A DNA stretch of 64,000 bases from Phytoactinopolyspora halotolerans. GTDB taxonomy: Bacteria; Actinomycetota; Actinomycetes; Jiangellales; Jiangellaceae. The DNA is taken from the NCBI RefSeq assembly GCF_010550675.1, contig NZ_JAAGOA010000032.1, positions 1 to 64,000 of the forward strand, written 5' to 3'. Position 1 is the first letter of the stretch; every line of letters begins with the position of its first letter. Position numbers and translations under genes: made by a program. Of this stretch, positions 49,751 through 59,563 are shown piece by piece. The notes below the pieces were generated by a model, which saw only the letters and a list, made by a program, of their open reading frames with translations, did no database searches and was not told where the DNA came from.

Positions 49751-49831
49751 TTGACATCGTTCCAGGTACAGAAATAAAGTCCAGCTACAAATTTAGCCAT
49801 CGGGCAGCCGAAAATATTGCAACAAGGTTGC
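49751..49831 (+). promoter_or_regulatory. Importer promoter with downstream operator-like repeat
   Basis: TTGACA (49751-49756), 18 bases, then TAAAGT (49775-49780) as a -10-like box. GCAAC-AAG-GTTGC at 49819-49831 is an inverted repeat placed about 32 bases beyond the predicted transcript start, where a regulator could block elongation. The importer start codon is at 49887. The regulator at 55583, in the same operon, is a candidate ligand-controlled factor. Confidence 0.6.
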
Positions 49832-49886: not shown

Positions 49887-51719
49887 ATGGGAGCAGGCGA
49901 GAACTCGAGCCTCAAGCCATGGCCCGGCGCAACCCGACGAGAGTTTCTGCGCGTCTCCGGCCTGGTCGGACTCGCCGTCGGCGGCGGATGGACACTGTCC
50001 GGTTGCGGCCTCACAGGTGAGGACGACGGATCGCCCGCCGCGGACACGGACGGCGACGGAGGAGGAGGTGATGGCGGCGGTGCCAAGGTATTGCGGATGA
50101 CCTTCGTCCCGGTTGAGGTGCTCGACCCGCAGATCATCACCAATGGCATGTGGATCCTGACCCGGGGCATCCTAGAAGGCTTGGTGGTCCAGAACGAGGA
50201 AGGCACCGACGTCGTTCCCGCCACCGCGGAGAGCTGGGACGTCTCCGACGACGCGCTGACCTACACCTTCCATATCCGGCAAGACGCGAAGTGGTCCAAC
50301 GGCGATCCTGTCACCGCGCAGGACTTCGAGCGCACCTACCAGCGGCTGCTCACGCCCAGCAGCGGCGGCGCCGGCGGCACCACGCTCGGGCAGAACTCGT
50401 ACCAGGCCACCACCGGCATCAAGGGCGCACTCGCCTATCTCGGTGGTGCGACGGAAGACTGGTCCGACGTCGGGGTCCAAGCCACCGGCGACCACGAACT
50501 CGTCCTGACTCTGGAGAGCCCGAACCCGGACTTCCTGCTGGCCATGACCCACCCCGCGCTGTTGCCGCTACATATGGACAGTGTCGACGAGATGCCGGAC
50601 GAGTGGCAGGTGCCGCCCAACTTCATCTCCAACGGCCCCTACGCGGTGGACAGCTTCGTCGCCAACTCCAGCATCGGACTGTCGCCGAACGAGGAGTATT
50701 GGGATCGGGAAGCCGTGACGCTCGATGCGATCGACATCCAACAGGTGGACCCCGGTGCCAGCGCGGGAACTCTGACCGTGCCGTACGAGAACAACGAGAC
50801 CGACATCCTGCCGATCGAGGCGGCGGATGTGCTCCGCTTCCAGCAGGACCCGGAGCTGTCCGACCACCTGCAAGAGATCGACACGTACAGCGTGGGATAT
50901 CTGGCGAAGCTGCGCAGCGAGCACCCGGCCCTCGAAGACGTGCGCGTGCGCAGAGCCCTGTCCCTCTCCCTGGACCGGGCCACCCTCGCCAGCGTGCTGC
51001 CCGGCGGCCGGCCCGGCCTGTCGCTGCCGCACGATCAGGTTGCGGGTTGGGACGAGAGCCTGGCGGTCGAGGAGAACCTGGACGAGGCGAAACAGTTGCT
51101 CGCCGACGCCGGGTATCCCGACGGCGATGGACTTCCCCAGGTGCGCATCCTGCACGGAGCGGATTCACCAGTGGTGGACGCGGTGATCGACCAGTGGAAG
51201 AACCGGCTCGGCATCGACGCACTCAATGACCGGGTCGAGGCCGGCGTCTACGTCGAACGACGCTGGGCCGTCCAAGAAGGCGACTACATCGGCTACTACT
51301 GGGGAACCTTCGCCGGGCTACCGACGCTGCCCACTTACGTCGGCGCGCTGTGGTCTCCGGCGGATATCCAGAAGTTCAGCCTGCCGGGAGAGGTCTGGCG
51401 CGAATACCAACAGATCGAAGCGGACGAGGACCTCGGCGGGGAAGAAAAGGCACAGCAGCTGACCGCCCTGATCGACGAGCACGCGTCCGAGGGCTCCAAG
51501 CAGATGGCGGACCTGGTGGCGCAGGCCACCGAAGAACTCGACGACGAGGCCAGACGGCAGCTGTACCTGGAGGCTGCCCGGGTCCGAGAGGAGGAGTTCC
51601 TCTATTTCGCCGTGGTGTGGCTGTCCTCCTTCTTCGCGGTGCGGCCCACCGTCACCGGGATGCAATTGCGCAGGTACCCGGACTTCTTCTACCTCAAGCC
51701 GCTCGGGCTCGAAGCCTGA
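49887..51719 (+). CDS. ABC transporter substrate-binding lipoprotein (family 5), Tat-type export
   Basis: 610 residues from ATG 49887; the longer frame from 49848 has no leader. The signal region [14 protein letters not shown] (Arg17-Arg18) fits Tat export and the lipobox LSGCG gives Cys40. An acidic Gly/Asp linker follows. Family-5 motifs include [20 protein letters not shown] and the segment [20 protein letters not shown]. It heads an operon with two permeases and two ATPases. Such systems take up peptides or, in several glycan loci, oligosaccharides; the lyase gene divergent from it favours the latter. Confidence 0.92.
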
Positions 51720-51737: not shown

Positions 51738-52739
51738 ATGGGCTTGTTGCGGTATCTCGGGAGTCGTGCCGGGCGCCTGGCACTGTCGCTGATAGCGGTC
51801 TCCATCATCACCTTCGGCCTGCTCCAGCTGGCGCCCGGCAACTTCGCCGACATCCAGCGCGTGACCAGCGGCGCCACCAGCATCGCCGGTACCGGCACGG
51901 AATCCATGCTGGCCGAGACACAGGCGCGCTATGGCGAGGGCACACCGGTGGTCGAGCAGTACCTCACCTTCATGCAGGGTGTGGTCACCTGGGACATGGG
52001 CCCCTCGTACCGGTACGCGGGGCGTGCCGTCGAGGACATCATCGAATCCGCGTTCCCGGTCTCGGCGACGCTGGCGGTGCTCGCGGTGCTGCTGGCGTTG
52101 CTCATCGCGATCCCGGCCGGTGTGTACGCCGCGCTGCGGCAGAACTCCAAGTCCGACCACACCACCATGTTCCTGGTGACGCTCGGCCACGCACTGCCGA
52201 ATTACCTCATCGCAGCCTTTCTGATCATCGTCTTCACCGCGTACCTGGGGTGGTTCCCGTCGAGCGGGTGGAGCACGCTGGACCACGTCGTTCTTCCGGT
52301 TGTGGCGCTCTCCCTCGGTCCCGCCGCCGTCCTGGCCCGGTACGTGCGGTCCAGCATGCTGGAGACGCTCCGGGAGGAATACGTGACGGCCGCCCTGGCC
52401 AAGGGTGGCCCGTACCGGACCGTCATCCTCCGGCATGCGCTGCGGAACTCACTGATCCCGCTGGTGACGGTGGTGGGTCCGCTGCTCGCGGCGCTGATGA
52501 CCGGCACCGTCTTCGTCGAGGCGCTGTTCCGGATCCCCGGGCTCGGCTACTACGCGGCCACCGCCGCCGCCAGCCGGGACATGCCGCTGCTGATGGGGAC
52601 CGTGCTGTTCTTCGCGCTGATCATCATGGTGATGAACCTGCTGGTCGACCTCACCTACGGCTTCCTCGACCCACGCATCCGAGCTGAAGGGGGGTGGGGA
52701 CGATCGCGACCGCGGAAAGTCTCGACCCAACCGGCCTGA
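51738..52739 (+). CDS. ABC transporter permease, DppB type
   Basis: 333 residues. First helix GRLALSLIAVSIITFGLLQL, about six helices, and a large extracellular loop near residues 35-100 (ATSIAGTGTESMLAETQARYG). The ATPase-contact loop reads VTAALAKGGPYRTVILRHAL. It starts 18 bases after the binding-protein stop with GGGAGG upstream and overlaps the next gene by 46 bases, so the two must be coupled. The C-tail after DPRIRAEGG is longer than usual by about 15 residues. Confidence 0.92.
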   Translation: MGLLRYLGSRAGRLALSLIAVSIITFGLLQLAPGNFADIQRVTSGATSIAGTGTESMLAETQARYGEGTPVVEQYLTFMQGVVTWDMGPSYRYAGRAVEDIIESAFPVSATLAVLAVLLALLIAIPAGVYAALRQNSKSDHTTMFLVTLGHALPNYLIAAFLIIVFTAYLGWFPSSGWSTLDHVVLPVVALSLGPAAVLARYVRSSMLETLREEYVTAALAKGGPYRTVILRHALRNSLIPLVTVVGPLLAALMTGTVFVEALFRIPGLGYYAATAAASRDMPLLMGTVLFFALIIMVMNLLVDLTYGFLDPRIRAEGGWGRSRPRKVSTQPA

Positions 52740-53644
52740 CCACCGACGACGACGGTCACCGCGACGGCGCCGCAGACCAGCTAGGGACTCTGCGGGCCCG
52801 AGGTCCCTGGGCCAAGGCCTGGGACCGGTTCCGGCGGAACCGGCTGGCTCTGATCAGCCTGGTCTTCTGCGGGGTGCTCGTCGTCGTGGCCGCCGCGGCG
52901 CCGTGGATCGCGCCGTACCATTACTCGGCCACCGACTACGGCAGTCAACTGGTCGGGGTCGGCGCGGACGGTCACCTGCTCGGCACCGACCAACTCGGCC
53001 GTGACATCCTCAGCCGCACCATCTACGGCCTGCGCACGGCGTTGATCGTGGCGTTCGGCGCCGAGCTGCTGGCGCTGGTGTGCGCGCTGGCGGTCGGCCT
53101 CGCCGCGGGCTACCGCGGTGGCCGGATGGAGCAGGGGCTGATGGCGTTCACCGACGTGATGTACGCCTTTCCCAGTTATCTGTTCGCCATCGTCATGGTC
53201 GCTGTGCTCGGACGGAGCATCTTCGCGCTGATCGTCGCGATCGGCATCGCCGGATGGGTGACCCAGGCCCGGCTGGTCCGCGCCCAGGTACTGGCCATCA
53301 AACAACGGGAGTATGTCGAGGCGGCGCGCGCGATGGGCGCGTCCGGTCCGACCATCGCGGTGCGGTACATCCTGCCGAACGCGATCGGCCCGATGCTGGT
53401 GACCACCAGTTTCGCCATCCCGGCCGCGATCGCGGCGGAGGCGGGGCTCGGCCTGCTGGGCCTCGGGGTCCAGCCGCCCACTCCGTCGTGGGGAGGCATG
53501 ATCTCCGAGGGCACCCGCTACCTGCTCTCCGCACCGCATATGCTTCTCGCCCCGGCCGCCGTGTTCGCGCTGGCGTTGCTCGCGTTCACCTGGGTCGGTG
53601 ACGGAGTGCGCGACGCGTTCGACCCGCGTGGAGATCAACGATGA
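52694..53644 (+). CDS. ABC transporter permease, DppC type
   Basis: 316 residues. GTG start after AAGGGG, 46 bases inside the DppB-like gene. The N-terminal part is polar and acidic until WDRFRRNRLALISLVFCGVL. Family features: LLGTDQLGRDILSRTIYGLR, the cytoplasmic loop EAARAMGASGPTIAVRYIL, and AGLGLLGLGVQPPTPSWG. It pairs with the preceding permease to form the pore. No deviation from the family was noticed apart from the overlap. Confidence 0.92.
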   Translation: MGTIATAESLDPTGLTTDDDGHRDGAADQLGTLRARGPWAKAWDRFRRNRLALISLVFCGVLVVVAAAAPWIAPYHYSATDYGSQLVGVGADGHLLGTDQLGRDILSRTIYGLRTALIVAFGAELLALVCALAVGLAAGYRGGRMEQGLMAFTDVMYAFPSYLFAIVMVAVLGRSIFALIVAIGIAGWVTQARLVRAQVLAIKQREYVEAARAMGASGPTIAVRYILPNAIGPMLVTTSFAIPAAIAAEAGLGLLGLGVQPPTPSWGGMISEGTRYLLSAPHMLLAPAAVFALALLAFTWVGDGVRDAFDPRGDQR

Positions 53645-54660
53645 CGATGACCGAACCACGAGACGGCGCCACGGCACCGACGGCGACGGAACCGTTGCTG
53701 CACGTGGCCGACCTGCACACGGAGTTCCGGCGGGAACAGGGTGAGCCGCTGCGCGCCGTCGACGGCGTCAGCTTCGACATCGCACCCGGGCGCGCACTGG
53801 CGATCGTCGGCGAGAGCGGGAGCGGCAAGAGCGTGACGATGCGCACGGTGCTCCGGCTCCTCCCGCGCACCGCTCGCACCACCGCCGGCACCGCCCGGTT
53901 CCAGGGGCGAGACCTGCTGACGCTATCCGCGCGGGACATGCGCCGGGTGCGGGGACGGGACATCGGCATGGTGTTCCAGAACGCCATGGAGGCGATGAAC
54001 CCCACGCTCACCCTGGAACGCCAGCTCACCGAGCACCTGCTCTGGCACGGCATCTGCGGCAAGGCGGAAGCGAAGAAGCGCGCGGTGCAGGCGCTGGCCG
54101 ACGTCGGCATACCGGAGCCGGAACGCCGGATCCGCGTCTACCCGTTCCAGCTCTCCGGCGGGATGCGGCAGCGGGCGATGATCGCCATGGCCATGATCAC
54201 GCAACCGGCGCTGCTGATCGCGGACGAACCGACCACCGCCGTCGACGTCACCGTGCAGCGGCAGATCCTCGATCTGCTGGCGGGCCTGAAGGAACGCGGC
54301 ACCGGGATCATCATGATCACGCACGACCTGGGCGTCGCCCGCTATTTCTGCGACGACGCCGTCGTCATGTACGCGGGCCGGGTCGTGGAACGGGCGCCGA
54401 CGCGCGACCTGCTCGACACCCCGCGGCACCCGTACACCCGCGGGCTGCTCGGCTCCAGCGTCGAGGTCGGCGGCCGGGACCGGCCGCTCGCGCCGATCCC
54501 CGGCAGCCCTCCCGACCTGGCCCGGCGGCCGGTGGGATGCGCGTTCCATCCGCGGTGCGCCGAGGCTCAGCTACCGCGCTGCCGCGAGGATCAGGAGCTC
54601 ATCGAGATCAGCACGACGCGCGCAGCGGCATGCTGGCGGGCAGGAGACGACGATGACTGA
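53641..54660 (+). CDS. ABC transporter ATPase, DppD type
   Basis: 339 residues with Walker [12 protein letters not shown], signature LSGGMRQRAMIAMA, Walker [14 protein letters not shown] and the switch His in IIMITHDLGVA. The C-terminal extension ends CAFHPRCAEAQLPRC with three Cys residues, as in metal-cluster-bearing relatives. Starts by ATGA overlap with the permease and overlaps the next ATPase gene by eight bases. Drives import together with it. Confidence 0.94.
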   Translation: MTMTEPRDGATAPTATEPLLHVADLHTEFRREQGEPLRAVDGVSFDIAPGRALAIVGESGSGKSVTMRTVLRLLPRTARTTAGTARFQGRDLLTLSARDMRRVRGRDIGMVFQNAMEAMNPTLTLERQLTEHLLWHGICGKAEAKKRAVQALADVGIPEPERRIRVYPFQLSGGMRQRAMIAMAMITQPALLIADEPTTAVDVTVQRQILDLLAGLKERGTGIIMITHDLGVARYFCDDAVVMYAGRVVERAPTRDLLDTPRHPYTRGLLGSSVEVGGRDRPLAPIPGSPPDLARRPVGCAFHPRCAEAQLPRCREDQELIEISTTRAAACWRAGDDDD

Positions 54661-55465
54661 GACGACCCCGGCCGTGACCCCAGGTGAGGAGACGGTGGAC
54701 GCGATCGTCCGGGCGGAGAACGTCACGAAGGTCTTCTCCACTCGAGCAGGAGACGTGCGCGCGGTGGACGACGTGTCGCTCTGGGTGGCCCGAGGCGAGA
54801 CCGTCGGCGTCGTCGGTGAGAGCGGCAGCGGCAAATCCACGGTGGCCAGACTGCTGATGGGACTGCAACCGTGCACGTCCGGCCGGGTGGTCTTCGACGG
54901 GCGTGACCTGGCCTCCGTGCAGGGCCGCGAGTTGCGGGTACTGCGTCGGCGCATGCAGATGGTGTTCCAGAATCCGTTCGGGTCACTGCTGCCGCACTAC
55001 AGCGCGGCCGCGAACGTCATGGAACCCATGCGGCTACATGGCCGCGGAACCAAGGAGTCCCGGCGAGACCGCGCCGTCGAGTTGCTCGACCTGGTAGGGG
55101 TCAACCCGCGGTTCGCGGACCTGTATCCGACCCAGTTCTCCGGCGGCCAGCAGCAGCGCATCGCCATTGCGCGGGCGCTGGCCCTGGAACCGGAACTGCT
55201 GGTGTGCGACGAGCCGACGTCGTCGCTCGACGTATCGATCCAGGCGCAGATCCTGTCCCTCATCGGCGACCTGCAAGACCGGCTCGGCCTGTCCTGCCTG
55301 TTCATCTCGCACAACCTCGCCGTCGTGGAGCGGCTGGCCGACCGCGTCGCCGTGATGTCCGAGGGTCGGATCGTCGAGGAGGGACCGGCGGAGCAGCTGT
55401 TCGAGTCGCCGCAGCACCCGTACACGCAGCGGTTGCTCGGTGCCGTGCTACCGGTCACCAGCTGA
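54653..55465 (+). CDS. ABC transporter ATPase, DppF type, short form
   Basis: 270 residues. Walker [15 protein letters not shown], signature FSGGQQQRIAIARAL, Walker B LLVCDEPTSSLDV and the switch loop LFISHNLAVV. It stops at PYTQRLLGAVLPV, so it lacks the Cys-containing C-terminal extension present in the relative at 19475 (347 residues). Many DppF proteins are complete without it, and the core is intact. ATG overlaps the previous gene. Last importer gene before the regulator at 55583. Confidence 0.93.
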   Translation: MTETTPAVTPGEETVDAIVRAENVTKVFSTRAGDVRAVDDVSLWVARGETVGVVGESGSGKSTVARLLMGLQPCTSGRVVFDGRDLASVQGRELRVLRRRMQMVFQNPFGSLLPHYSAAANVMEPMRLHGRGTKESRRDRAVELLDLVGVNPRFADLYPTQFSGGQQQRIAIARALALEPELLVCDEPTSSLDVSIQAQILSLIGDLQDRLGLSCLFISHNLAVVERLADRVAVMSEGRIVEEGPAEQLFESPQHPYTQRLLGAVLPVTS

Positions 55466-55582
55466 GGCACCCGCGGTCATCACACGGTCCGCGGTCGGGC
55501 GGCCATCACACGGTCGGGCGGCGAGGTACGCTCGTCGTCGTCGGGAGGAGCGCTGAGCGCTGGGGTGGCTGGGGAGAGAGCG

Positions 55583-56911
55583 ATGCACGGATCGAACGGC
55601 GCCCGGGAAGAGGTGACCATCGGCGTCGTGGGGGCGGCGGAAGCCATCGAGCGGATCATGTCGGTGGCGCGTGACACCGGCTCGTCTTGGTGGCGGCTCG
55701 TCGCTGCCGCGTACACGGATGAGGCGGACGCGCATGCGCAGTTCGTCAAGATCGCGTCGCGGATCGATGTCTGCCTGTTCTCCGGCCCGTTGCCGTACGA
55801 CATGGTCACCGGCACCGGCGGCCTGTCGGTCCCGGCCGCCTACGTGCCGGTGGACGGCGCCGCGATACACGGCACGTTGCTGCGCGGGATCCTCGGCGGG
55901 GTCTTCGATCCGACGCGGATCAGCATCGACTCGGTCGCCAAGCGCGATGTGATGCGCACGTACGCGGAGATCGGCCTGAGCTCGCAGCACGTCCGGGTAC
56001 TCCCCTACTCGCGGCCCGGTTCGGCAGACGAGTTCCTCGGCTTTCACCAGACCCGCTACGAACTCGGTGAGACGACCGGTGCCGTGACCACGGTGCCCAC
56101 GGTGGCCGCCGCGCTCGCCAGCGCCGGGGTGCCGGTGTTGACCATGGCCCCGGCGGAGACCACGGTTCGACACGCTCTGCAGACGGCCGGCCTGATCGGG
56201 AGTCAGGCGAAGCTGGAGGGGGCGCGCATCGTCACCGTGATCGTGCGGGTGCCGACGTCGATGCTTCCGCCGCACCCCGGCCCCAGCAGCTACTCCTACC
56301 AGGAGTCCAAGCTGTCCCTCTACCGCGAGCTGCTGCGCGAGGCGCGGCCCATGGACGCGGCTGTGCTCGCCCGGGATGAGCGCAGTTACCTGGTGGTGAC
56401 GACCATGGGATCGTTGCGGATCGGCACCGACGACCTGACCGTGGCCCCGTTCGTGCAGCGCATCTCGAGCGAGCTCGGCATCGACGTCGAGGTGGGCATC
56501 GGGCTCGGCCACTCCACCCGGGAAGCGGAGCTGAACGCGCAGACCGCCGTGGACAAGGCGGCGGCCGCCGGCGATCACACCGCGTTCCTGCTCGGCCCGG
56601 CCGGCGCGGTCCTGCAGCTTCCGGTCGAGCGGCGGCCCGAGCCGCACGTCGTCCATCCGGGCGGCGGGGCGTCGTCGAAGGCCGCCGAGACGCTCGCCCG
56701 GCTCGCCGGCGGGCTGGAGACGGAAGAGAACCATGTGGTCGACGCGGAGAAGGTCGCGGAGATCCTCGACGTGCGGCTGCAGACCGCACGCCGTGCGCTG
56801 CGGATGCTGGTGGACGAGGGACTGGCCTGGCCGATGCCGCCGGCGCGCGCTCGCAAGGTCGGCCGCCCTCCCCAGCTGTTTCAACTGCTGTTCGAGAAGC
56901 TCCACACCTGA
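55583..56911 (+). CDS. Predicted transcriptional regulator with cyclase-like middle domain and C-terminal winged helix
   Basis: 442 residues from ATG 55583, six bases after GGAGAG. The N-terminal half (about 1-240) resembles a sensor domain with alternating strands and helices and no known motif. The middle (about 250-365: MDAAVLARDERSYLVVTTMG, then GIDVEVGIGLGHSTREAELN) looks like the degenerate GGDEF/nucleotide-cyclase-type domain seen in PucR/CdaR regulators. The C-terminal 70 residues (VVDAEKVAEILDVRLQTARRALRMLVDEGL) form a winged helix-turn-helix, unlike the PucR type. It follows the importer by 117 bases, so it is the likely controller. The family assignment is inferred from pattern only. 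Confidence 0.65.
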   Translation: MHGSNGAREEVTIGVVGAAEAIERIMSVARDTGSSWWRLVAAAYTDEADAHAQFVKIASRIDVCLFSGPLPYDMVTGTGGLSVPAAYVPVDGAAIHGTLLRGILGGVFDPTRISIDSVAKRDVMRTYAEIGLSSQHVRVLPYSRPGSADEFLGFHQTRYELGETTGAVTTVPTVAAALASAGVPVLTMAPAETTVRHALQTAGLIGSQAKLEGARIVTVIVRVPTSMLPPHPGPSSYSYQESKLSLYRELLREARPMDAAVLARDERSYLVVTTMGSLRIGTDDLTVAPFVQRISSELGIDVEVGIGLGHSTREAELNAQTAVDKAAAAGDHTAFLLGPAGAVLQLPVERRPEPHVVHPGGGASSKAAETLARLAGGLETEENHVVDAEKVAEILDVRLQTARRALRMLVDEGLAWPMPPARARKVGRPPQLFQLLFEKLHT

Positions 56912-56924
56912 CCCCGCCCCCGTC

Positions 56925-57016
56925 CTAAATGATCATGTGAAGTGGGTTTTCGCCAGCACTACCATGCCTGCAGACCTGGTACGGCACGAGAAAACCCACT
57001 TCACATGATCATTTAG
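56925..57016. repeat. 92-bp palindromic element, copy C
   Basis: Starts 13 bases after the regulator stop and ends 21 bases before the end of the opposite propeller gene, so it sits between convergent genes. CTGCAG centre at 56970/56971. Outer arms match the family and pair with GTGAAGTGGGTTTTC. Inner arms are type 2 on the left and type 1 on the right, the same orientation as copy B. Can fold into a long hairpin usable as a two-way terminator. Confidence 0.92.
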
Positions 57017-57037
57017 GCGGTGCGAGTGGGCCGTCCG

Positions 57038-59563
57038 TCAGCGCGGGCGGCGGTGCGCCCAGTGCTGTGGGTGCAGGTCGAACCGCGCCAGCCGGCGGTC
57101 GCTCACGCCCCACGCGTGCCAGTCGTCGTCGAACTCCAGCTGCGGCACGGTGTACCAGCTGGTGGGGATGGGGCCGAGGATCAGCTCGTCGTCGTCGGCG
57201 CCAGGGCCGATACGGGAGATGTCGTCGGAGAAGTTCGTCGCCGCGAAGACCTGACCGCGGTGGGTGACGATCTCGCCGTAACCGCTGAGCGTGCCCTGAT
57301 GCAGGATCTCCTGGGACTCCAGATCCATCGCGAACCAGGTGCCGCTGGTGCGCTTGTACACCCCGTACAGGATGCCGTCATGCACCTCCACATGCTGCAG
57401 GCTGGGGCAATCGGGCAACGGTTCGATCCGCCACAGCACCGTCCTGGAGTCGAGGTCGAACGCGGCGAGCTGTGCCGTGGTCCAGATCGGCGTCGAGTCG
57501 TAGCCGCCTCGAGCGTCGCCGGCGACGTACGCGATCCCATCCGCGACGCAGACCGACAGGTAACTCTGCCCAGGGATGATGTCGGTATAGACGGTCATCT
57601 CACCGGACTCGGGTTCGAGAATGGTGAGTCCGCCGTCGAGCATCCCATAGCGGGCAGCGGTGGCGATGAGCACCTCGCCGCCGGTCTCGTCGTACACCAT
57701 TTCCCACGGGCGCTGCTGGTTGTGGCCGATCAACCCGAACGAGCGGGCCCGTCCGTCGGCGGGATCGATCTCCACCACCTCACTGCTGGGATACATGGCG
57801 GCCAGCAGCTTGCCGTTCAGCGGCAGCAACGCCTTTGGTTCGCCGGCGACGCGGATCCGGCGGGAGCTGCCCTCGGCCGGATGGTGCACGGTGATGCCGA
57901 AGTGGCCGCCGACGTAGACGGCCGCGCGCCCGGCGTCGTAGGCGATGGACTGGACCAGGTCCGGGCCGGAGACGTCCGTCTCGGTGAGGTCGAACACGTC
58001 CGCTTCCCCGGTGTCGGGATGGTAATACCACACGACCCCGCTTCCACCACCGCCGATCAGCACGCCGTCGTCGCGCATGACGACGCCGCGCGTCTCGTCG
58101 CCGGCGTTCGCGATGCCGACCGGCTCCAGGGCGTCGCCGACGCGGCGGTAGATCTGACCGGTACGTCGCGCGACGGCGTACAGCACACCGTCGTCAGTCA
58201 CAGTGAGCGCGTCCATCCCGGACGGAGCGTTCGGTGCCGCCAGGAACACCGGATCGGAACCGTCCGATGCCATGTCGACGAGCTGGTCACCGATGGCGGC
58301 GACCACGCGGCCGGCGGTGGCCACGATGGCCGAGACGGCGTTGTCCCGGTCGATCTCGGTCGGTGCGATGTCGGTCATCGTGCCGGACACCCGGTCGATC
58401 GCGATCACGTGGCAGCGCGGCGTCGTACCGACGTAGACGAACCGCTCGTCGGCGGCGATCACCCTGGCGTACTGCACGTCGCCGGAAGCCCGGCCCAGGT
58501 TGCGCAGCGTCTCGGTGCCCGGGTCGTACTCCCAGACCTCACACCGCGGATAGGTGCCGGCGTAGACGACGCCGTCGGGTGCGGTCGTCAGGCACCACAC
58601 GAACCCTCCCGCCGGCCCGATGGTGCCGAGCAACTCTACGTCGCCGGACTCGGGATGGTAGCGGTACAGGTCAGGCGTCGGATACGTACCCGCGTAGACG
58701 TAGCCGCCGGAGATGGTGGTGGCCCACGCGCCCTCGCCACGATCGAGCCGCACGATCCGCTCCACCCGTCGCTCGGCCAGGTTCAGAGTGACCAGCTTGG
58801 GCGGCGTCTGGCCGCGGGTGACGACGTATCCGGTGTCGCCGTTCACCGCCATGCCGACGATCGCAGCCGTGGGCGAAGCGATCCCGAACGTCTCCACCCG
58901 GCTTTCGTCCAGCACCGTAGGCGCGAGCCGGGCGTCGTCGGCGTAGCTGGTGCCGGTGTTGGCGGCGCTGAGATAGATCAGCACCGTCGCGTGAGTGGCG
59001 TCGTCCGGCGCGTGGCCGTTGACCCGCAACTCCTGCCAGCTGTCCAGGGTGGGGTTGGTTCGGAACTGCGCGGATATCCGAGTGCCGGCGGCGTTCCAGA
59101 ACTCCAGGTAGAGATCCGACTGCCCGCTCGTGTTGTACGTGAACACCGTGGCCTGGTACGACGTCCCGGCGGTCACCGGAACGCGGTCGCTGCGCAGCCC
59201 GATGCCGAGGCTGCCGCTGGGGTCGTCGAGGCGCACGCTGCGTGCCCCGCTGCGGGTGACGTCGGTGGCGCTGTGCACATGTTCAGCGGATCGGGCGTTG
59301 AATGGCTCCCAGGCCGTGGGAAGGCCGGCGTCGACACGCTCGAACCCCGGGTTGGCCAGCAGGTTCTTGTCGTCCGCGCGAGGTTTTCCGGTCTCCGCCG
59401 ACGTGTGCGTCGTCGCCCATGGGCTCGCCAGCGTGGCGATGCCGAGGCCGGTGGCGACTGAGGCTTGCAGGAATCGGCGACGGCTGCTGCCGGGCTGGGA
59501 CGTGCCGTGCGGTGCGGTATCGGGGTCGGGGTCGGCGTCGGGGTGCTGGACGGAATCGGCCAT
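57038..59563 (-). CDS. Tat-exported beta-propeller protein with N-terminal carbohydrate-binding-like domain
   Basis: 841 residues. The Tat motif SSRRRFLQASVATG is at residues 26-39. Residues 65-200 form a CBM4/9-type beta-sandwich (NLLANPGFERVDAGLPTAWE, then TAGTSYQATVFTYN and WQELRVNGHAPDDATHATVL). The remainder is propeller blades with the repeated phrase VYAGTYPTPDLYRYHPESGD, VYAGTYPRCEVWEYDPGTET and VYVGTTPRCHVIAIDRVSG. It is a paralogue of 36673-39024 but lacks the C-terminal helical hairpin. No catalytic residues recognised. A role in glycan binding or cleavage outside the cell is inferred. Confidence 0.83.
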   Translation of the reverse strand: MADSVQHPDADPDPDTAPHGTSQPGSSRRRFLQASVATGLGIATLASPWATTHTSAETGKPRADDKNLLANPGFERVDAGLPTAWEPFNARSAEHVHSATDVTRSGARSVRLDDPSGSLGIGLRSDRVPVTAGTSYQATVFTYNTSGQSDLYLEFWNAAGTRISAQFRTNPTLDSWQELRVNGHAPDDATHATVLIYLSAANTGTSYADDARLAPTVLDESRVETFGIASPTAAIVGMAVNGDTGYVVTRGQTPPKLVTLNLAERRVERIVRLDRGEGAWATTISGGYVYAGTYPTPDLYRYHPESGDVELLGTIGPAGGFVWCLTTAPDGVVYAGTYPRCEVWEYDPGTETLRNLGRASGDVQYARVIAADERFVYVGTTPRCHVIAIDRVSGTMTDIAPTEIDRDNAVSAIVATAGRVVAAIGDQLVDMASDGSDPVFLAAPNAPSGMDALTVTDDGVLYAVARRTGQIYRRVGDALEPVGIANAGDETRGVVMRDDGVLIGGGGSGVVWYYHPDTGEADVFDLTETDVSGPDLVQSIAYDAGRAAVYVGGHFGITVHHPAEGSSRRIRVAGEPKALLPLNGKLLAAMYPSSEVVEIDPADGRARSFGLIGHNQQRPWEMVYDETGGEVLIATAARYGMLDGGLTILEPESGEMTVYTDIIPGQSYLSVCVADGIAYVAGDARGGYDSTPIWTTAQLAAFDLDSRTVLWRIEPLPDCPSLQHVEVHDGILYGVYKRTSGTWFAMDLESQEILHQGTLSGYGEIVTHRGQVFAATNFSDDISRIGPGADDDELILGPIPTSWYTVPQLEFDDDWHAWGVSDRRLARFDLHPQHWAHRRPR

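Follow-up and report, generated by a model that had tools for sequence, protein, structure and literature searches.

A predicted one-component regulator combining a PrpR-like sensor fold, a degenerate GGDEF-like module and a winged helix at the end of an Opp operon in Phytoactinopolyspora halotolerans

In the PucR-type regulator MabR (Rv2242), a degenerate GGDEF domain (HGTWL) lies between the sensor and the helix-turn-helix (HTH), and the effector is given as unknown (PMC11617747). PrpR is activated by 2-methylcitrate (PMC4987338). The review PMC7288161 describes a common core for GGDEF, class III cyclase, GTP cyclohydrolase III and palm domains. We analyzed a gene in 64,000 nucleotides of P. 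halotolerans DNA (contig NZ_JAAGOA010000032.1, positions 1 to 64,000; hereafter the window) whose product, here called REG, is predicted to join modules reminiscent of each of these systems. All three modules are known singly; we found their combination nowhere in the open-licence full texts searched. The gene and its modules are the following.

55583..56911, + strand: REG, the regulator coding sequence, 442 amino acids, from the open reading frame and sequence, its start backed by relatives
55610..56212, + strand: N-terminal sensor module, residues 10-210, with a PrpR_N fold predicted from the model (2q5c Z 17.4, 2pju Z 16.2)
56213..56623, + strand: middle module, residues 211-347, with a predicted GTP cyclohydrolase III / GGDEF / class III cyclase fold (2qv6 Z 15.2)
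56375..56389, + strand: DERSY, residues 265-269, the degenerate GGDEF position by alignment columns
56495..56509, + strand: GIGLG, residues 305-309, its three glycines invariant in 30/30 aligned proteins and the same motif present in the 2qv6 alignment
56672..56890, + strand: predicted winged helix for DNA binding, roughly residues 364-436, carrying GRPP..(F/Y)QL towards its end, from the model, Foldseek and hhalign against IclR/DeoR

The REG frame runs from an ATG at 55583 to a stop at 56911 in the ORF listing and translation. A GTG at 55565 is also in frame but is the less likely start, since an ATG stands at the position of 55583 in several close relatives. The frame is not a chance ORF, as relatives at 22-80% identity cover nearly its whole length. 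The OppF gene (54653-55465) precedes REG, and a consensus scan of the intervening 117 bases found neither promoter-like nor terminator-like sites. On the REG protein, every Pfam and NCBIfam model stays below its cut-off, and the three distant relatives with feature annotation are each called 'hypothetical protein'. The sequence-only reading of this gene had suggested a little-known regulator family, and the lack of any curated family at cut-off and of a described architecture in the open-licence texts fits that suggestion. A PADLOC scan found no defence link.

REG was modeled with AlphaFold2 from 12 sequences, giving middling confidence (mean pLDDT 70.4, pTM 0.54). Strands and helices alternate through residues 10-210 of the model, and residues 8-211 match the PrpR N-terminal domain (2pju) with a Z of 16.2 and a Clostridium relative (2q5c) with a Z of 17.4, at an rmsd of 2.7-3.0 across 184-185 residues between model and solved structures. 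These values of 16-17 compare with about 10 for LacI and hydantoin racemase, and Foldseek agrees with the fold assignment of the first two modules. Residues 10-210 are thereby modeled as the two-lobed PrpR N-terminal sensor fold. The sequence family PF06506 (PrpR_N) matched neither the REG protein nor in any of 21 genomes of the family, and in hhalign PrpR_N was the best of 18 targets for the REG sensor (30%) but with one lobe paired with the other. Sequence proof of PrpR_N kinship therefore failed, and it is the fold that supports the assignment. Unlike PrpR, REG has no sigma-54 AAA+ module; none of the six Pfam matches of the protein is a sigma-54 domain.

In the same model, residues 216-337 follow the order b-a-b-b-a-b-a-b and are succeeded by one short strand and then by helices. 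The best match for residues 213-341 is the second half of GTP cyclohydrolase III (MJ0145, 2qv6), with a Z of 15.2 and an rmsd of 2.6 over 121 residues; GGDEF domains (Z about 10-13, maximum 12.7) and class III cyclases (about 10-11) come next. Weak sequence matches, independent of the structure model, point in the same direction: PF05165 matches 13 of the 30 aligned REG-family proteins at E<=1 (best 9e-5), a GTP cyclohydrolase IIa profile matches 17 of the 30 at the same threshold (best 2.4e-4), and hmmsearch matches 2qv6 at E 0.0036, with a GIG.G plus helix motif common to both. The REG protein itself falls short of the enzyme models (13.0 against a cut-off of 21.3 bits for PF05165, 14.9 against 306 bits for PRK02240). 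Residues 211-347 are thus modeled as a palm fold of the cyclase/GGDEF kind, nearest to that of GTP cyclohydrolase III, although REG matches one ~120-residue half of a 250-residue enzyme chain, below cut-off, and carries it inside a regulator.

When modeled alone, the REG C-terminus shows the winged-helix order H-E-H-H-E-E, and Foldseek returned CadC, MarR, ROK and TFE with probabilities of 0.95-1.00 among the matches listed (50), the best E being 0.004. With a C-terminal profile, hhalign gave probabilities of 69% and 66% for the IclR- and DeoR-type proteins of the window, about 20% for LacI and <=1.5% for other targets; as a control, the OmpR-type response regulator of the window, also a winged helix, was missed (0.3%). 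The assignment of the C-terminus as a winged helix, with predicted DNA binding, rests on Foldseek and the HMMs. REG shares this fold with SufR, ArsR, MarR, IclR and DeoR, which REG relatives match weakly by HMM, but its winged helix is C-terminal behind two other modules and reaches no family cut-off.

From the letters, the gene had been described as an unknown sensor, a degenerate GGDEF/cyclase-like middle and a C-terminal winged helix, in an order and with an HTH foreign to PucR. The suggested fold prediction was run and returned the cyclase/GGDEF palm fold, so that the model and the DERSY motif speak for the degenerate middle, and the H-E-H-H-E-E order and Foldseek matches for the winged helix. 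The HTH is indeed of another kind, since the PucR HTH model PF13556 is unmatched and a winged helix is predicted instead. The sensor can be recognized as a fold while it stays outside the sequence family PF06506. The proposal on module order was mistaken: sensor, GGDEF-like module and HTH is the PucR order, as in MabR (PMC11617747). REG thus resembles the one-component PucR/CdaR regulators in placing a probably dead GGDEF-like module between sensor and C-terminal HTH, and differs in that its sensor is PrpR_N-like where theirs is globin, and its HTH a winged helix where theirs is PF13556. REG as a standard PucR protein was rejected, as neither the PucR HTH nor the GGDEF_2 model (PF13556 and PF17853) matched at E<=1, despite the GGDEF-kind fold.

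REG directly follows five Opp genes, whose promoter region and products are these.

49751..49780, + strand: promoter-like TTGACA-18-TAAAGT of the Opp operon, kept in loci L004, L005 and L009
49790..49819, + strand: conserved block directly past the -10, a candidate operator, with core 49798-49813 CATCGGGCAGCCGAAA
49887..51719, + strand: OppA-like substrate-binding lipoprotein (SBP_bac_5 E 1e-67; OppA structures), ORF from 49848 and conserved ATG at 49887
51738..52739, + strand: OppB-type permease (Pfam/NCBIfam)
52694..53644, + strand: OppC-type permease (Pfam/NCBIfam)
53641..54660, + strand: OppD-type ATPase (Pfam/NCBIfam)
54653..55465, + strand: OppF-type ATPase (Pfam/NCBIfam)

The top solved-structure matches of the binding protein are OppA-type, with murein-peptide-binding proteins lower. 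An oligopeptide is therefore a likelier substrate than the oligosaccharide that had been put forward, next to a nucleotide, as the sensed compound. The five-gene operon lies directly upstream of REG in the window and in L004, L005 and L009, with gaps of about 50-117 bases, and these four loci are exactly the members of one REG clade (window, Phytoactinopolyspora endophytica, the DX1 MAG and P. alkaliphila; support 98/93). All four keep TTGACA-18-TAAAGT and, directly past the -10, a block with the consensus AATT....CCATCGGGCAGCCGAAAT, while the sequence further upstream is mostly unconserved, apart from similarity between the window and L004, its nearest relative. An 18-nt core has 0-1 mismatch in the four Opp loci versus >=3 elsewhere in the loci compared, and the 16-nt core has a single mismatch-free occurrence in the genome of P. 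halotolerans. At <=3 mismatches that genome has 149 places for the core versus 68 for the reversed pattern, and weak core matches are therefore meaningless.

In four near-identical Kribbella loci the same Opp subfamily starts ~3 kb downstream of REG and is convergent with it. In 4/4 of these genomes the top relative of the Opp binding protein (59%) sits in the Opp cluster near REG, at E about 1e-229 to 1e-232 versus 1e-16 to 1e-19 for the next. The Kribbella Opp promoters retain TTGACA but not the core, whose best ungapped match there in the four genomes has 7 of 16 positions mismatched; a MAFFT alignment of two of the four contains a gapped look-alike of the block. We looked for the candidate operator beside the other REG copies and did not find it. 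Short resembling sequences behind REG in three Kribbella loci and behind a broken REG copy (L015) were rejected as too weak. The conserved block is thus no more than a candidate operator of a single clade, and it could instead serve another regulator or the transcript leader.

On balance we judge it somewhat probable that REG is a cytoplasmic one-component protein that senses a ligand and regulates, probably by repression, the Opp operon that it ends. What the computation itself shows is the three-module build, the absence of the catalytic motif, the place in the operon and the conservation of the promoter block. The PrpR-like two-lobed N-terminal domain would bind a small metabolite. The middle domain, probably catalytically dead, would relay the signal or dimerize, as the GGDEF-like domain may in PucR proteins, and it might carry a second, nucleotide input. 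As DNA target of the winged helix we infer the conserved block directly past the -10 of the Opp promoter, and since a protein sitting there would obstruct RNA polymerase, REG is taken as a repressor. The imported peptide, or something made from it, would lift the repression.

The closest named relative of REG is that of P. endophytica (80% identity), and the P. halotolerans assembly holds three copies: the window copy, one at 65% and one at 38%. A profile built on 30 aligned proteins and searched in a class sample of 246 genomes gave full-length matches in 20 genomes of its own taxonomic family f1, P. halotolerans among them, in 21 genomes of f17 and in a single one of f19; the remaining listed matches are short stretches, mainly of the winged-helix end. 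The alignment comprises the window protein and those of 29 of 49 loci, and omits the window's own place (L001), same-place duplicates, close repeats, the broken L015, fragments (L040, L049) and some stop-containing reads (L026, L031, L033). A single-protein query of a phylum sample, with the best five candidates per genome scored, matched 3 of 296 genomes: that of P. halotolerans, G278 (56% over nearly full length) and G099 (a short stretch). Distant relatives at 22-27% identity were met with on Paenibacillus, Bacillus badius and Prescottella replicons, and a plasmid-collection search for more returned the same four records. Full-length relatives are thus found in Jiangellaceae, Kribbella and Nonomuraea-type genomes and, distantly, in Bacillus and Paenibacillus. 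The broken copy belongs to P. halophila (L015, 8001-9336) and is split into two reading frames.

The importer link seen from the letters alone is real for the window and holds for one clade and, more loosely, for Kribbella. The association of homologues with Dpp/Opp operons, suggested as a check, was surveyed in 35 distinct loci of 12.8-20 kb in addition to the window; L097, which coincides with L005, was not counted. Complete five-gene Opp sets were found in seven of these, namely L004, L005, L009 and the four Kribbella loci. The other relatives had no complete Opp set within these stretches, and a family-wide association was rejected. In the B. badius locus (L047), a peptide-binding protein and a single Opp-type ATPase are encoded 6-9 kb from REG, and two paralogous loci (L006, L008) have an ABC-2 transporter in place of Opp. 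As most relatives do not stand beside Opp, ligands must differ within the family.

Other neighbors recur. In 11/11 Nonomuraea-type loci an EPSP-synthase-like gene lies directly upstream of REG on the same strand (Pfam run on three). In one of them (L044, 5342-10278) REG is last in a run of purD-, purC- and EPSP-synthase-like genes; this link of a GTP-cyclohydrolase-like regulator with purine genes could be accidental. Nine of the 29 neighborhood stretches (the window and 28 loci) contain DegT-type genes; REG positions there were taken from tblastn, and the simple gene caller overlooked REG in L080 and L095 and gave wrong sizes for several genes. The REG family thus regulates, or at least travels with, differing small gene sets per clade. 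On the DX1 contig (L005 7938-16938, equal to L097), two REG copies flank a DegT gene, a propeller gene and an unclassified 594-aa protein, relatives of which (591-616 aa; weak DUF4350 in the three scanned) lie near REG in five loci. At L093 (2507-3685) a regulator of AraC type, its N-terminus matching GGDEF_2 (E 2.7e-6), is next to a REG relative and a gene for a class III aminotransferase.

The strongest rival to the Opp reading concerns the gene on the other side of REG.

57038..59563, - strand: beta-propeller protein (DUF6923 / PQQ-like), the convergent neighbor of REG, recurring near REG relatives

The true and original target of REG would then be the neighboring beta-propeller/aminotransferase set, Opp having been captured secondarily in one clade, which we consider rather unlikely. 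A propeller lies within 7 kb of REG in 18/20 genomes and within 14 kb in 19/20, among the matches listed, where random placement would give about 0.8 and 1.4 genomes; these counts amount to no probability, the genomes being related and not independent and picked for holding REG (19 Jiangellaceae and one of f19), and the gaps are upper bounds in genomes with many propellers, where the nearest-looking matches were taken. In the f19 genome (G452) the one propeller match among those listed and the one full-length REG are separated by 3.2 kb, in which lies a DegT aminotransferase gene divergent from REG, and the window has a second propeller gene ~16.5 kb from REG. However, the Nonomuraea-type loci have the EPSP-synthase-like gene beside REG and no propeller in the stretches read, one genome (G010) has no propeller near REG among the matches listed, and the sole conserved promoter block found is at Opp.

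The N-terminus of the propeller protein carries a Tat-like RRRFLQ by eye, for which Pfam TAT gives E 0.2. Between REG and the propeller gene, at 56924-57017, lies a ~94-base palindrome with arms 86% complementary. It is a dispersed repeat with 80 matches on both strands of its own genome (about 40 places scored, 98 candidates); among 22 genomes it is present in many copies in G001, G002, G004 and G005, once in G009 and not in the other 16. Window positions 36673-61148 hold genes for GlcNAc 2-epimerase-like, heparinase II/III-like, DegT aminotransferase, two propeller and ceramidase-like proteins, and this region looks like a glycan or amino-sugar use cluster.

A further alternative is that GTP or a different guanine nucleotide is bound, but not turned over, by the middle module, so that REG would read both a metabolite and nucleotide status; we hold this to be unlikely. 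Its nearest fold is the GTP-binding GTP cyclohydrolase III, and the three glycines of GxGxG are those invariant throughout the alignment. The motif GG(D/E)E(F/Y) is missing in 29/30 aligned proteins, while one distant relative (Paenibacillus L045) retains GGDEY. Catalytic residues were judged solely via alignment with GGDEF columns, and a site on the first strand, which we take to be the metal-binding acid position of GGDEF enzymes, is Arg in 15/30 proteins, REG and 14 others, and Asp or Glu in 11/30. The nucleotide site may therefore be less decayed elsewhere in the family, whereas in REG both the arginine and the lost motif argue against binding. MabR, moreover, offers a precedent that works with GGDEF motifs missing and with its effector given as unknown (PMC11617747). 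Catalysis by the REG middle module is unlikely given the degenerate motif, and the reading as an active diguanylate cyclase was rejected on DERSY. That the module is an active cyclase or cyclohydrolase to which the winged helix is accessory is very improbable, as the fold alone speaks for it, against the degenerate motif and scores below the enzyme-family cut-offs.

The regulator that we favor, a probable repressor of its own Opp operon, represents a new way to assemble a common kind of bacterial switch and a concrete case of a GTP-cyclohydrolase-III-like domain in an apparent regulatory role. A doubtful but broader possibility is an unrecognized regulator family of soil Actinomycetota, present in Bacillota, in which a PrpR-like pocket, a dead guanine-nucleotide sensor derived from GTP cyclohydrolase III and a winged helix would read one specific nutrient together with the cellular guanine-nucleotide level. 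The interest of REG would rise if the GTP-cyclohydrolase-like module reads a nucleotide. The defined architecture, the candidate operator and the two gene partnerships would allow the REG family to be named and tested.
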